Assembly: GCF_028994805.1 (NCBI RefSeq)
Contig: NZ_JAJQQP010000001.1
Location: forward strand, 186,001 to 250,000
Reading direction: 5' to 3'
Source: Promicromonospora iranensis
GTDB lineage: Bacteria; Actinomycetota; Actinomycetes; Actinomycetales; Cellulomonadaceae
Length of the DNA stretch: 64,000 nt
Shown here: positions 15,585-20,371 of the stretch, in pieces
How positions within the stretch are numbered: the first letter of the stretch is position 1
Layout: each line of letters begins with the position of its first letter
Notes under the pieces: model-generated
Told to the model about the DNA's origin: nothing
The model's database searches: none
What the model saw: the letters and a program-made list of their open reading frames with translations, nothing else
Made by a program: the position numbers and the translations under genes

Positions 15585-15742
15585 ATGACCGCTGCGAGAT
15601 AGCCCTGGACCACCGGTGCGAAGCCGTAGGGCACGTAGTCGCTGAACTGGTCCGGCGTAGCCCACGCGAGGTCCGAGAGTTCCTCCGTGTCGGCCACGTA
15701 CGCCGTGCCGCTCTTAACCTCGCAAGCCATTCGGTCGAACAG
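15585..15742 (-). pseudogene. C-terminal remnant of a Nudix hydrolase
   Basis: Minus-strand codons from about 15742 to 15585 encode ELSDLAWATPDQFSDYV and PYGFAPVVQGYL, the pattern of the last 50 residues of many actinobacterial Nudix hydrolases. The Nudix box and everything before it are missing. At its 5' side the frame runs into the 3' end of the AbiEii gene, whose stop codon lies inside the Nudix sequence in another frame. It looks like the scar of an insertion or deletion that brought the AbiE pair next to a chromosomal Nudix gene. Confidence 0.55.
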
Positions 15743-16595
15743 CCAGTACGGGGTCGATGAACCTCCCGATCGCGGTGAGGAGGTCGGAGAATCGTTCGGG
15801 TGCAAGTTCAGAGAGCCCGTGCTTGCGTCGCCAGGCGATGTACCGAGCCTGTGCAACCTCAGCAAACATTACTAGGTCGATCGTTTGGGCAAGAGGGGCC
15901 AGGACTACACCTCGATGTTCGGCGACCACACGCAACGACGTCCGGAGCTCGTCCGGGTCGAGCGCAATGGTTCTACCTATGGTGTAGAGGTCCACGAAGT
16001 CACGCCAGCGGGTGTTCGTCTCACCACGCGCCAGTGCGGTGACGTACTTCTCGGCGACGATCATCGCGGGCACATAGCCGCGCACGACCACGTCCTGACC
16101 GAGCATCCCCGGCAGCACGACGTCGACCGCCGGCGGTGCCACAGGGTCACCGGCCGAGAAGTCGAAGGCAATCTTCTGCCTGTCGGTGTGCAGGTTGCAG
16201 GTCATGGCGGCACGGAAGCCGGTGTAGTCGTCGTTCTCGCGAATCTCGGTGACCGTCAGCGTCTCGACGTCGTACGTCAGCCCGTCCGGCTCGTCCACTG
16301 CGATGACGGCACGGCAGACCTGGCGAACGGTGGCCTCATCCAGGCTGAGGTTACTCAACATCGCATCGATGTCCTTGGTCGGGCGACGCTCGACATACGC
16401 CGCCAGTAGGAAGCCACCCTTGAGGACGAACTTGTCTCGGTAGACGGTCCGCGTAAGCCTGTGCAGCGTGCGCTCGAGCTTGTAGAGGACAAGCGCCTCG
16501 GCGAAGTTAACGCCTTCCTCCTTGGCCACCCTCCGCAGCGCGAGATAGGTCGCTCTAGCCTGCTCAACTGTGGTGGCCGTCGCACTCTCGGTCAC
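15714..16595 (-). CDS. abiEii: AbiEii-type nucleotidyltransferase toxin
   Basis: A 293-residue member of the AbiEii/AbiGii family, a type IV toxin-antitoxin nucleotidyltransferase linked to abortive phage infection. The fold signature is visible: VLKGGFLLAAY with KGG at 59-61 and the metal-binding R-x-T-x-D-I-D at 71-77. A conserved lysine is in MIVAEKYVTAL, and the helical tail ends FIDPVLA. The GTG start at 16595 overlaps the antitoxin stop as GTGA. The last few residues (after about FIDPVLA) are read from the Nudix remnant, so the native stop was probably lost in a rearrangement. Confidence 0.88.
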   Translation of the reverse strand: MTESATATTVEQARATYLALRRVAKEEGVNFAEALVLYKLERTLHRLTRTVYRDKFVLKGGFLLAAYVERRPTKDIDAMLSNLSLDEATVRQVCRAVIAVDEPDGLTYDVETLTVTEIRENDDYTGFRAAMTCNLHTDRQKIAFDFSAGDPVAPPAVDVVLPGMLGQDVVVRGYVPAMIVAEKYVTALARGETNTRWRDFVDLYTIGRTIALDPDELRTSLRVVAEHRGVVLAPLAQTIDLVMFAEVAQARYIAWRRKHGLSELAPERFSDLLTAIGRFIDPVLAVRPNGLRG

Positions 16596-17167
16596 GTCAA
16601 TATCTCCAGAGCGGTACGGAGCGGCCCCTCGGCACGGGGCAGCTGACGGGCGATGCGGAGCAGTTCGGAGGGCTGATTCCCGCGCCTAAGGAGCCAACGG
16701 CGCAACGCGGTGGTCGCTGTCTCGTAGCCCTCGTAGCCCCGCATACGAAAGGCGTCGACGACGCTTCGGGCGGGTGAGTAGATCGGAACGGCGACACCGC
16801 TGACCTGCTCGATCCTGCGCTCCAGATAGAACGTCTCGGCGTCGAACGATCGCCATGCGACTCGCGTAGCCAGCACCGGTTTGTGTGCGCCGCGCGGGAG
16901 GGCGAGGTCGTACGCCGCTGGGATATCGTCCACCAGGTCGTACTGGGCCAGGGCGCTCGTGAGGCAGATCGTCGCTCGCGGAGACCTGGTGACGATCTCG
17001 ATCAGATCAGGATCCCCCACCTCGGTATCCGTCGGCTGGTACCACCCGCGCGCGATCTGAGCAACAAGGCCGGTATCCACCCAGGCGCGCAGCGTCCGCG
17101 CGTTGATCCCTTGAGCGCGCGCCTCAGCAGTACGGAACGGACCGCGTTGAGCGAGTAGATCGTGCAC
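16592..17167 (-). CDS. abiEi: AbiEi-type antitoxin and autorepressor
   Basis: A 191-residue antitoxin with an N-terminal winged helix (about 1-45, including ARTLRAWVDTGLVAQIARGWY) and a C-terminal domain with YSPARSVVDAFRMRG, both typical of AbiEi proteins. In characterised systems the N-domain represses the operon and the C-domain is needed for antitoxicity. The GTG start at 17167 has AGGAAGG 5 nt upstream. It is immediately followed by the toxin gene with 4-bp overlap. A perfect 14-bp inverted repeat just upstream is the expected operator. Confidence 0.88.
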   Translation of the reverse strand: MHDLLAQRGPFRTAEARAQGINARTLRAWVDTGLVAQIARGWYQPTDTEVGDPDLIEIVTRSPRATICLTSALAQYDLVDDIPAAYDLALPRGAHKPVLATRVAWRSFDAETFYLERRIEQVSGVAVPIYSPARSVVDAFRMRGYEGYETATTALRRWLLRRGNQPSELLRIARQLPRAEGPLRTALEILT

Positions 17168-17191
17168 CGGGGCCTTCCTGGAGCGGGTGGG

Positions 17192-17231
17192 TCAAACTCT
17201 CTACAGATAACCTTAGATGTAGAGAGTTTGA
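17192..17231. promoter_or_regulatory. inverted-repeat operator of the AbiE operon
   Basis: Perfect 14-bp arms TCAAACTCTCTACA (17192-17205) and TGTAGAGAGTTTGA (17218-17231) flank a 12-nt AT-rich spacer, 25 bp before the abiEi start. The arrangement agrees with the inverted repeats bound by AbiEi in characterised systems, where binding blocks the promoter. Confidence 0.75.
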
Positions 17232-17255
17232 TCCGCAGCTCGGCGGCGACGCATG

Positions 17256-17292
17256 CAGAAGGCCCGAAACCACTGAGGTTCCGGGCCTTCTG
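17256..17292. terminator. hairpin, probably the original terminator of tRNA-Thr
   Basis: 16-bp arms CAGAAGGCCCGaAACC/GGTTcCGGGCCTTCTG with one mismatch surround an ACTGA loop. On the minus strand it directly follows the displaced 3' tRNA segment (17299-17341), as expected if this was the native tRNA terminator before an element inserted. Confidence 0.65.
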
Positions 17293-17298
17293 CTGGCT

Positions 17299-17341
17299 GA
17301 GCCGCCTGTCAGAATCGAACTGACGACCTTCTCATTACGAG
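17299..17341 (-). repeat. attachment-site copy: 3' end of tRNA-Thr, distal
   Basis: 43 bp identical to 20298-20340, covering the tRNA-Thr sequence from the anticodon to the 3' end plus two flanking bases. No 5' half is present, so it cannot encode a tRNA. It marks the left end of the integrated element. Confidence 0.88.
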
Positions 17342-17428
17342 AACGTCCCGGAGGCCTGCGGGCCGCTTCTCCGGCTTGGTTTCGCGTGCATGTGGTGCGC
17401 TCGAACTACACGACCGCTCGTCGGGGGT

Positions 17429-17445
17429 GCGCGGGGGGTGCACGA
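17429..17445 (+). repeat. 17-bp direct repeat near left end of element
   Basis: GCGCGGGGGGTGCACGA, identical to 20198-20214. It lies 87 bp inside the left attachment copy. The partner lies 83 bp inside the right one. The matched positions suggest integrase arm-binding sites or a residual end repeat. Confidence 0.6.
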
Positions 17446-17495
17446 ATTCGGGGCTGTCGTCGCAGGTCTGTGACCCAACATGCTCCTACTTCGGG

Positions 17496-17682
17496 GCCCC
17501 TGTTCCTCCGTCATCCGTTGGCGCGGGGCACGTCTCGGACATCGGTTCTGCCGTCAGTGCAACAGGTCCCGCTCATCGGGCGTCGGTGCGGTGGTGCTGG
17601 GTGTCGGCGGGGCCTGTTGCGCTGGCGGCGGGTTCGGTGTCAGGGTCCCGATCAAGCCAATGGATGACGGAGGAACAGGGGC
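17496..17682. repeat. 27-bp inverted-repeat pair, MITE-like
   Basis: Left copy 17496-17522 and right copy 17656-17682 are inverted relative to each other over 27 bp with one mismatch. They start GCCCCTGTTCCTCCGTCATC at the outer end and are separated by 133 bp with no coding potential. The size (187 bp) and terminal inverted repeats fit a miniature transposable element, but no matching target duplication was found. The rest of 17342-17804 holds no gene. Confidence 0.5.
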
Positions 17683-17804
17683 ACCGCGGCTCCCTCGATC
17701 CTCTTGATTCCCGGGTGCCCGCCGGAGGCACTTGGTGGGTGCGTCTCGGAGGGTTTCCTGGGAGCGGCGGTGAGCTGTGCTGGCACTGTGTCTACAGTTC
17801 GGCC

Positions 17805-18152
17805 ATGGCATCCAGCGACGCTGACTTCGAGCTCTACGCCATCATGACGAGCACGGCGCATCAGGTCCTTGCTTCGAGTGATCCGTACTGGGTCGGCATC
17901 GACGGCATGGACGAGATTGCCGCTGACGAAGTCATGTTCGATGCCGAGCACGGCGCGGCGGCATATCTCCTGTGGGCGAACCTGACCGACATCAATGATG
18001 ATCCGCGGATCGACGGCGACCGTGCGCTCTGCGAGGACCGGCTAAGGATGGCTGCTGGCGAGTGGCTGGAACTGGACCTCGCTCGCCCGGAGGCGATCGA
18101 GCGCTATTTCAGGCGTTGGCACGACCCGATGGAGCCGGTGGACGCCCAGTAG
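17805..18152 (+). CDS. hypothetical protein in integrative element
   Basis: A 115-residue, strongly acidic soluble protein (MASSDADFELYAIM...) with no family I recognise. Residues about 40-75 (DEVMFDAEHGAAAYLLWANL) look like a helical core, and the C-terminal part carries ERYFRRWHDP. The ATG at 17805 is the only well-placed start after the MITE-like repeats. It is followed 34 bp after its stop by a hairpin terminator, so it is probably an independent transcription unit. Confidence 0.6.
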   Translation: MASSDADFELYAIMTSTAHQVLASSDPYWVGIDGMDEIAADEVMFDAEHGAAAYLLWANLTDINDDPRIDGDRALCEDRLRMAAGEWLELDLARPEAIERYFRRWHDPMEPVDAQ

Positions 18153-18185
18153 TCAGGCAGTCGGACGCGAGCTGCACAACGAGAG

Positions 18186-18213
18186 ACGGTCTCGACCACT
18201 GAGTCGGGACCGT
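18186..18213 (+). terminator. hairpin terminator
   Basis: 11-bp stem ACGGTCTCGAC/GTCGGGACCGT with one G-T pair and a 6-nt loop, followed by CTTCGTC, 34 bp after the stop of the hypothetical gene ending at 18152. The remaining gap to 18364 is GC-rich with short palindromes and no gene. Confidence 0.65.
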
Positions 18214-18364
18214 CTTCGTCATGTTCCGGGCCGGTAGGCCGTCGGGGTGCGGTGGGGTGCGCGCAGGGCGCGAAGCGCCCGGAGCGCGGGGCCCCATCGC
18301 GGGCCCCCGCCGGCCGCACGGCCCAGCGCGCCGCAGGCGCGCCTTGAGCCAGTAAAGAAAGTCC

Positions 18365-19012
18365 TCACGGGGCTGGCGGCAGCCTCCGCTTACACCGGAC
18401 CAGGTGAGTACCCCCGCGTCCCTTTCGAACCGTGACTTCATACTCTGCGCCAGACTCGCGGCGCACGAAGCACATGGTCGCAGTGGGCCCTTCTGTCTCG
18501 ATCGACTGGAGGATGAAGTCGGCGTCTTGCACCTCGTAACGGGTAGCGAGCCGCCAACGAGCAGCGTGTGTCGCCTCCTCCTCACTGATCGTGAGGTCCT
18601 CGCCGTCGGTATCGCGCCACCTTGCGGCAAGACGTTTGCCCATCTCTTCGATCAGCTTGCCGACCCCATATGCAACTGCGGCATCGTAGAACGTGCTACC
18701 TACGTGTGCGAGGTACTCGACCGATGCCCCGCTGGCGCCCCACTCGACGCTCTTCCGGCTCTCACGAAGAATGATGGCCGGGCCTTCGGACCGGGGATCC
18801 GACGCACGTTCGATCGCGTGATCAAGCCAGCCCCGCTTCCACGCTGTGCCATCTGCTTGGATCGCGACCCATTCGTCGCCTTGCACCTTGTCGAAGTCAT
18901 CCACCGGAACGAAAGTGATCCCGACCCTGTCTGCCCGGTCCTCTTCGGGGTCAAAGTCGAACTCCGACTCGGGGTCGAAGGCTGCCTCGGCGTTACGGTC
19001 GCTTTTTTCCAT
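18365..19012 (-). CDS. hypothetical protein in integrative element
   Basis: A 215-residue soluble protein, unrecognised. Its N-terminal 30 residues are very acidic (DPESEFDFDPEEDRADR). The middle has a GDEWVAIQADGTAWKRGW strand region and an EEMGKRLAARWR helix. The C-terminus is basic and ends with a RKGRGGTHLVRCK-like strand. Codon use is somewhat less GC-rich than the core genes, in keeping with acquired DNA. The ATG at 19012 follows a weak AGGAAG-like site. Confidence 0.6.
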   Translation of the reverse strand: MEKSDRNAEAAFDPESEFDFDPEEDRADRVGITFVPVDDFDKVQGDEWVAIQADGTAWKRGWLDHAIERASDPRSEGPAIILRESRKSVEWGASGASVEYLAHVGSTFYDAAVAYGVGKLIEEMGKRLAARWRDTDGEDLTISEEEATHAARWRLATRYEVQDADFILQSIETEGPTATMCFVRRESGAEYEVTVRKGRGGTHLVRCKRRLPPAP

Positions 19013-19072
19013 AGAGGAAGAATGGCGGTTGCACTCCGGTTTGGCGACCGGTCCAGCCTGCTTGCTGTCGAG

Positions 19073-19603
19073 TCAGGCTCTCTGAGTGGCGAGACTGCTC
19101 ATGTCAGCAACAAGGGCGTTAGCACCGGCAACTCGAAGTTCAGTACCACGACGCGGTGTCTTTGCATAGCCGATGCACGGAACAGCAGTCGCCCGCGAGA
19201 CTTGGACGTCGGATACGGAGTCTCCGATGAACACGGCACGTCCAGGTTGGACCTGGAGGAGTCGCAGCGCTTCGTCAACGGTGTACGTATTGGGCTTCAT
19301 GAGGTTGGGCCTATGTACTGGTCGGCCGACAACAGCAACCACGTAGGGTGAGAGCACCCAACGTTCCAGGTAGGCACGGATCGCAACTTCGGCATTGTTG
19401 CTGACGATCACTACCGGCTTGCCGCCCTGGTGGCAGCGAGCCAGCAAGTCATGTGTACCGTGCGTCGGCTCGGCTGTGAGTGCGGCGGCGGTCTCGGCGT
19501 CGTCACAGAGGGCTTCGACTTCGCCCAGCGCCTGGGGTGCGCTGGTGGCGGTCCACCGCAGGACGGCGAGGTGATCGCTAGTCGTGCCGATGCGGTCGTC
19601 CAT
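19073..19603 (-). pseudogene. N-terminally truncated HAD-family hydrolase
   Basis: The 176 visible residues cover HAD motif II (VIVSNN), motif III (lysine in LMKPNTYT) and motif IV (FIGDSVSDVQ). The N-terminal block with the nucleophile DxD motif I is absent. The frame stays open a little upstream of the ATG at 19603, giving LLARNIA in phase, which suggests the true gene continued. A stop then appears where the truncated integrase begins on the other strand. Without motif I the phosphatase should be inactive. Confidence 0.65.
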
Positions 19604-19623
19604 CGCAATGTTGCGCGCGAGCA

Positions 19624-20235
19624 GTGGACGAGATGGACCCGTTCACTGAGAGCGGGCTGGAGGCGGCCTACCTGACCTGGCGGATGAAGGACGAACGTCT
19701 GGCTGACGTCCTGCTCGTGATGGGCTGGACGGGTCTGCGCTGGGGCGAGGTACGTTCGATGCAGGTGGCGAACTTCGTCGAGGTCCCGACCCCGGGTCTG
19801 ATGGTGCGTCGCAGCCAGCCCGAGGGCTCGCCGGCCAAGGCCACCAAGGGCCGGTCGATGCGTCGTGTCCCGCTCGCAGATCGCGTGCTGTCGATCGTGC
19901 AAGAGCTGGCGGACGGCCGGACGCCACATGATCTGCTGTTCACGTCGTCGGGCGGGTCGCAGCTCTGGTGCACGGCTACCGTTCGGACTCTCGCCTGGGA
20001 GACGACCGGTCAGGGCCGACGCCTGCACGACCTGCGGCACACGGCCGTGTGCCTCTGGCTGTCCCGTGGTGTGGAGCCTGGGACGGTGCAGGCGTGGTGC
20101 GGACACGAGTCGATCGCGACCACGAACCGGTACCTGCACTTCCTCGGGACCGACGCCGACAAGGCGGGCCTGAACAAGCTGAATGACGGCCTGGGGAGCG
20201 CGGGGGGTGCACGAGATGAGCGCAACGGCGCGTAG
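19624..20235 (+). pseudogene. tyrosine integrase, catalytic domain only
   Basis: A 203-residue C-terminal fragment of a phage/ICE-type tyrosine recombinase. The catalytic residues are all visible: Arg in GLRWGE, His and Arg in LHDLRHT, His in CGHES and the tyrosine nucleophile in NRYLHF. Full-length enzymes of this group have about 370-400 residues; the arm-binding and core-binding N-terminal domains are missing. The frame opens at a GTG (19624) with no ribosome binding site. It ends 63 bp before the att repeat beside the intact tRNA, the normal position for a tRNA-targeting integrase. Confidence 0.75.
20198..20214 (+). repeat. 17-bp direct repeat near right end of element
   Basis: Identical to 17429-17445. 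Here it lies inside the last codons of the integrase fragment, 83 bp from the right attachment copy. Confidence 0.6.
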
Positions 20236-20242
20236 GACGCAA

Positions 20243-20290
20243 GAAACCCCGCCCCACCTCGGCACATATGGCCTGGTGGGACGGGGTTTC
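20243..20290 (+). terminator. terminator behind the integrase fragment
   Basis: 16-bp arms GAAACCCCGcCCCACC/GGTGGGaCGGGGTTTC with one mismatch and a 16-nt loop, starting 8 bp after the integrase stop. It would also terminate transcription leaving the tRNA on the minus strand. Confidence 0.75.
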
Positions 20291-20297
20291 CATGGCG

Positions 20298-20340
20298 GAG
20301 CCGCCTGTCAGAATCGAACTGACGACCTTCTCATTACGAG
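20298..20340 (-). repeat. attachment-site copy within intact tRNA-Thr
   Basis: 43 bp identical to 17299-17341. Here it forms the 3' part of the complete tRNA-Thr gene and marks the right end of the integrated element. Confidence 0.88.
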
Positions 20341-20371
20341 TGAGATGCTCTACCGACTGAGCTAAGGCGGC
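20299..20371 (-). tRNA. tRNA-Thr(CGT)
   Basis: 73 nt on the minus strand that fold fully: acceptor GCCGCCT/AGGCGGC, D-stem GCTC/GAGC, anticodon stem TCTCA/TGAGA with loop CTCGTAA (anticodon CGT, reading ACG), five-base variable region, and T-stem GTCAG/CTGAC with loop TTCGATT. The discriminator is U and CCA is not encoded. Its 3' half was used as integration target by the adjacent element. Confidence 0.96.

Follow-up and report, generated by a model that had tools for sequence, protein, structure and literature searches.

Among actinomycete integrative and conjugative elements (AICEs), the combination of RepSA, WhiB-like, DUF2637 and FtsK-type proteins corresponds to the gene set by which these elements are defined in the available part of PMC3218068, a survey that, as far as that part goes, excluded remnants of the kind described here. 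The accessible portion of PMC5704250 applies the term cis-mobilizable element (CIME) to elements that have lost their integration and transfer genes and have kept the attachment sites attL and attR, and it describes tandem accretion as a route for them. We have analysed a stretch of 64,000 nucleotides from Promicromonospora iranensis (contig NZ_JAJQQP010000001.1, positions 186,001 to 250,000; hereafter the window), in which an earlier note had read the surroundings of a tRNA-Thr(CGT) gene as the scar of an integrative element. We find, with a probability that we put at roughly 93%, that the 2,999-bp segment beside this gene is a decayed pSAM2 (RepSA)-type AICE which in its present form fits the definition of a CIME. 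The features that carry this finding are the following.

17256 to 17292, minus strand: original tRNA terminator hairpin, now behind the distal copy (fold; position in G012)
17299 to 17341, minus strand: distal copy of the 3′ part of the tRNA, the attL core
19624 to 20235, plus strand: C-terminal 203 residues of a tyrosine integrase (PF00589, 3e-16), catalytic domain kept
20297 to 20371, minus strand: intact tRNA-Thr(CGT) (ARAGORN; Rfam RF00005), its 3′ part at 20298 to 20340 being the attR core

The 3′ part of the tRNA is duplicated exactly, as had been claimed: direct reading and a repeat search both give 43 of 43 identical bases for the two cores, which are spaced 2,999 bp apart, and extension of the repeat to 48 bp brings in one mismatch. 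The identical block breaks off where the anticodon loop begins, at its first base on the 5′ side. ARAGORN finds no other tRNA gene in the window, and a pattern search of the whole genome with a 30-base piece of the core, allowing up to three mismatches, returned just the two places in the window; the reversed control pattern gave no match in the whole genome, so the duplication is not due to chance. The integrase fragment is directed at the intact tRNA, again as the earlier note had it.

The undisrupted locus is found in G012, the closest relative at hand (96% identity over the region to the right of the tRNA), where the left flank and its AbiE genes are joined at a single core to the right flank and its tRNA. 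When the window flanks are fused at one core they align through this junction with 470 of 511 columns identical, so that the G012 site can be taken as empty. The hairpin at 17256-17292 folds strongly, and because its counterpart in G012 sits directly behind the single intact tRNA, we regard it as the original tRNA terminator stranded behind the distal copy, which is where it had been proposed to lie. The identification of the feature and of its origin is thus supported: the empty site in G012, complete AICEs at the same tRNA and remnants in a further two congeneric species all point to an integrative-element scar. Of the two outcomes that had been named as speaking against it, neither is seen, since the right end carries a homologue of integrases and G012 has a single site in place of the two cores.

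Complete elements at the same tRNA supply the link to AICEs, as both the ends of the window segment and its integrase are homologous to theirs. The element of G005 measures 9,956 bp. Identity to the window is 88% over the first 449 bp at its left end and 86% over 820 bp at its right end, where the match continues into the tRNA; the window integrase fragment is 89% identical to the G005 integrase (Int). The genes of this element encode RepSA (PF20199, 1.6e-148), DUF2637 and proteins of the WhiB-like and FtsK types, and the two repeated modules REP1 and REP2, described below, are also present. A similar 7.5-kb element occupies the same tRNA in Antribacter G014, and a 12.8-kb element with a different left end is found there in G001. 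We know of nothing on the window element among the literature matches listed for Promicromonospora integrative elements, genomic islands and tRNA.

What remains inside the segment bears out the claim that most of the content was lost. None of the four genes scanned between attL and attR encodes a replication protein (RepSA or another AICE type) or an FtsK/SpoIIIE-type Tra protein, and the integrase is truncated.

17817 to 18152, plus strand: 111-residue cargo open reading frame (ORF) without a match in Pfam, PADLOC or NCBIfam; 94% identity in the G002 remnant
18365 to 19012, minus strand: 215-residue cargo ORF without a match in Pfam, PADLOC or NCBIfam
19073 to 19603, minus strand: HAD-like hydrolase lacking about 67 N-terminal residues (Pfam; 56% to a 242-residue HAD protein of the G001 element)
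19591 to 19630, no strand: deletion junction between the truncated HAD and integrase genes, where homology to the G001 HAD protein and the G005 Int ends
20243 to 20290, no strand: element-borne hairpin between the integrase gene and the tRNA (both-strand folding; similar hairpins in relatives)
15714 to 17167, minus strand: AbiEi/AbiEii toxin-antitoxin pair in the chromosomal flank just outside attL, also beside the tRNA in G012 and G002

The alignment to G005 Int begins at about residue 160, so that some 157 N-terminal residues are gone and 203 of about 360 remain. Two truncated genes meet at one junction, and most simply a single deletion, running from within the HAD gene to within the integrase gene, would have taken tra, rep and the starts of both genes. 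Of the 13 genus genomes, that of the window alone contains the 215-residue ORF. The hairpin at 20243-20290 folds on both strands, is matched by similar hairpins at the right ends of relatives, and is probably a two-way terminator; a terminator scan gave no T-run terminators, and the hairpin calls rest on folding alone. We also note a near-palindromic 22-bp repeat (17189-17234) on the promoter side of the AbiEi/AbiEii pair, and that among the relatives aligned this pair lies beside the tRNA in G000, G012 and G002 only.

The same tRNA site has a varied history across the genus. Two cores bracket an element in 5 of the 13 genomes (the window's, G001, G002, G005 and G006), the remnants of G002 (2.06 kb) and G006 (1.2 kb) differing in content. 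G004 has integrase-tail sequence yet a single core; G003, G007 and G009 carry right-end sequence of the element type adjoining the tRNA; and no trace of an element was seen in G008, G011 or G012 within the stretch read, which behind the tRNA is only about 4.4 kb long in G007 and G008. G010 has a degenerate partial second core, at locus L082, where the degenerate tRNA-Thr copy lies about 2.1 kb from tRNA-Thr behind a terminator-like hairpin; it is possible that this is a much older scar. An element-type terminator and arm-like sequence precede attL in both G001 and G005, as would be expected if elements accrete in tandem. The idea that elements have rewritten the T-stem variants of the genus tRNA was unsupported, as the variants track the tree of the neighbouring gene.

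The attachment sites themselves have a recurrent layout. Seven Thr pairs (window, G001, G002, G005, G006, G014 and L146) and the one Ala pair (L127) had both cores in one record; read by eye, all of them lose identity at the 5′ edge of the anticodon loop, and we infer this 7-nt loop to be the region of strand exchange. The attL and attR of G001 differ at two T-stem bases, which by itself does not place the crossover. In eight elements with both ends, two G-rich units at a pitch of 11 bp (10 in two left ends) lie 80-83 bp inside the left core and, on the other side, end 82-86 bp before the right core; the two ends of the G077 pair are on two contigs and are assumed to belong together. We infer these tandem units to be integrase arm sites. 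On each side, 7 of 8 ends have two units that agree with each other at 9 or more of 10 bases, a level reached in 6.6% of 885 control windows. The left end that falls short is that of L127, with no strong tandem by this measure; on the right it is that of the window (8 of 10). The unit sequence varies among elements, and G001 and L127 each share an odd version between their own left and right ends. Within the window the pattern is observed at two sites against 0.04 expected, and both candidates look intact.

17424 to 17445, plus strand: left candidate arm site, two G-rich units 11 bp apart
20193 to 20214, plus strand: right candidate arm site, inside the 3′ end of the integrase gene

In the available text of PMC10865867, anticodon-loop cores and paired arm sites are described as common in mycobacteriophages.

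From these observations a course of events can be proposed. A complete ancestral AICE would have integrated into the 3′ part of tRNA-Thr(CGT) by means of its tyrosine integrase, with the tRNA restored from the attP of the element and its former 3′ end and terminator displaced; the later single deletion would then have removed tra, rep and the N-terminus of the integrase, while the cargo of the left end and the catalytic part of the integrase stayed behind. Since both cores and both candidate arm sites remain, an incoming AICE could mobilise the remnant. One with an integrase of the G005 type could recombine attL with attR, or it could instead integrate at attR, next to the remnant, and take the remnant with it. 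Excision in trans, which the earlier note had raised, is therefore plausible and consistent with the intact cores and the candidate arm sites at both ends.

Several observations weigh against this account. The host genome holds no close second integrase, the next best having 35% identity, so a helper must arrive from outside. For arm sites of the common class the pairing within an element is loose: the right end of the same element is the strict best match to its left end in just 2 of 8 elements (G001 and L127), and the left arm of L146 matches the right end of L127 better than its own. An insertion of about 220 bp splits the left arm site of the G002 remnant (L077) and would put that end out of action; not all relatives are therefore still perfect. 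It is also conceivable that the window and G002 remnants share one insertion, which would require an unproven loss in G012. We considered this possibility, as one old insertion lost cleanly in G012, since it would be a natural instance of excision, and we make no such claim: lineage-matched core variants and synonymous divergence in the shared ORF argue against it, if weakly; between the window and G002 the synonymous divergence (pS) of the 111-residue cargo ORF is 0.15 against 0.23-0.48 in flanking genes, a difference that speaks against a single shared insertion and comes from 111 codons only.

Other origins for the segment deserve consideration. Tyrosine integrases at tRNA 3′ ends are common to phages and conjugative elements, and a collection of phages does hold relatives of the intact Int, so the segment might be what is left of a temperate phage; we think this very improbable, because the close full-length relatives at the same tRNA encode RepSA, FtsK, WhiB and DUF2637, and the two cargo ORFs of the window have no match in Pfam or NCBIfam (PHROGs was not searched). 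The 264 phage records matching Int all have less than 60% identity (25-30% for the best 20 of the 264), as do all 24 records of a plasmid search, and none of the 10 proteins scanned in G005 is a phage structural protein, each having an AICE function or no such match. A segmental duplication that took in part of the tRNA, with no site-specific integration, could also yield a direct repeat, and the degenerate copy in G010 might be cited in its favour. It would leave unaccounted for the empty site in G012, the integrase homologue at the right end, the end of identity at the anticodon loop in all seven Thr pairs and the complete elements with the same ends in relatives, and we give it almost no credence.

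Somewhat less improbable, though still unlikely, is that the segment is a small satellite, still under selection, which exploits the integrases of AICEs and is not a product of random decay. Its ends are intact though its movement genes are gone, and remnants of 1.2, 2.06 and 3.0 kb have persisted in three species, with a cargo ORF common to two of these. Set against this, the breakpoints differ from remnant to remnant, truncated genes persist and one arm site is damaged, all of which looks like decay.

The integrase family to which the fragment belongs has two target tRNAs. In 20 of 23 loci a tRNA lies behind the integrase gene (8 Thr(CGT), 12 Ala(CGC) and no other kind), and in three there is none; these are 23 of 25 integrase loci, L148 and L150 having been left out, and since L128/L129 and L134/L135 look like nearly identical pairs the loci are not all independent. 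Around the anticodon loop both tRNAs have the block GACCTTCTCATTRCGA in common, a few Thr loci having a base change at its left. A tree of 18 integrases was built from 15 of the 25 loci together with G005, G001 and the window fragment; on it the distribution of Thr and Ala requires five changes, at least three of which are forced by well-supported branches. Judged from these sequences, the family targets tRNA-Thr(CGT) and tRNA-Ala(CGC) and appears to have switched repeatedly. According to the available part of PMC3218068, it had already been reported, for Lys and Met, that different tRNAs may serve related AICE integrases; a literature search on integrases at the anticodon loop of tRNA-Thr or tRNA-Ala returned nothing related.

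The left part of the segment holds two modules that recur in relatives.

17491 to 17732, plus strand: REP1, a long covarying hairpin (17492-17690) with a short tail; a module at the integrase-distal end of AICEs
18169 to 18370, plus strand: REP2, a hairpin and G+C-rich palindromes; directly joins REP1 in several relatives

The REP1 stem has more than 70 pairs, and 97.7% of cells pair over 16 aligned copies. Changes on both sides are seen in 19 of 85 pairs, compared with 5.9 in shuffles (0 of 500 reach 19) and 5-10 with slid partners, a comparison to be read with caution as the structure was derived from the same alignment. As DNA the plus strand folds better (−74.5 against −57.9 kcal/mol for the minus strand) because several conserved pairs are G-T/G-U. 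Long copies (at least 230 bp) number 26 in the 200 family genomes searched, and at REP1 loci with long flanks AICE genes were recognised by similarity in 11 of 20, REP1 preceding them in the same orientation in 11 of 11; no AICE genes were seen at the remaining nine, some of which are cut by contig ends. REP1 was not found in plasmids, and a covariance-model search of 297 genomes of the order, under strict filters, returned two genomes, one of them that of the window. Our guess is that a rolling-circle AICE would use REP1 as a transfer signal or as a single-strand origin; Streptomyces rolling-circle plasmids possess single-strand origins, according to the available part of PMC3583192. REP1 and REP2 lie within about 50 bp of each other in several relatives, and other sequence fills the interval in the window, G002, G006 and a second element of the window genome, the same ORF doing so in the window and G002. 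It is as if the junction were a slot for cargo insertion. We note that the genes or sequence at this junction differ among elements (17732-18169 in the window; L009 7108-7739; L083), that REP1 also occurs at loci L097-L109, L009 and L088, and that L009 (3197-10432, contig C30 of the same genome) is the second element, of about 7 kb, associated with tRNA-Ser and having flanking repeats, an integrase motif and its own copies of REP1 and REP2.

It is possible, though we consider it doubtful, that these pieces make up an unreported grammar of attachment sites. One integrase family would read the anticodon stem-loop common to tRNA-Thr(CGT) and tRNA-Ala(CGC), hence the swaps of target; symmetric tandem arm sites with an 11-bp pitch would flank the element; beside the left arm, the covarying hairpin, specific to the lineage and over 70 bp long, would act as a single-stranded signal of the circular AICE, such as a single-strand origin or transfer signal, and mark the edge of the cargo slot; and remnants that keep this package would ride with incoming AICEs. 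One tRNA now shows, across related species, a series of empty, complete and variously decayed states, which permits a direct test of whether decayed AICEs remain mobilisable; with its intact-looking ends, a remnant lacking its own movement genes might still be moved by a later, related element. The side results offer testable rules for where an integrase family binds and why the same family occurs at two tRNAs; they also add a hairpin, conserved in the AICEs of this bacterial family, for which no Rfam model gave a match.

The window element is a known kind of thing, an AICE remnant that matches the definition of a CIME and adds a further member. It resembles the CIMEs described in the available part of PMC5704250 in that genes for integration and transfer are lost (integrase truncated, no tra among the genes scanned) while attL and attR are kept (43/43 cores, candidate arm sites at both ends), and G001 and G005 show signs of tandem accretion at this tRNA; it differs in that a truncated integrase persists. 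With pSAM2/RepSA AICEs, as far as PMC3218068 is available, it shares a tyrosine Int next to a tRNA 3′ end, and its complete relatives carry Int, RepSA and FtsK-type Tra in the AICE order att-tra-rep-int-att, whereas the window copy is without tra, rep and the integrase N-terminus. The pSE211-type integrases of the same source are likewise AICE integrases that use a tRNA-Thr; the family described here uses tRNA-Thr(CGT) and tRNA-Ala(CGC). Lastly, like the tRNA-targeted genomic islands found by Islander (PMC4383910, in its available part), the window segment has a regenerated tRNA at one end and the displaced fragment at the other, although, unlike in those islands, its integrase is not intact.

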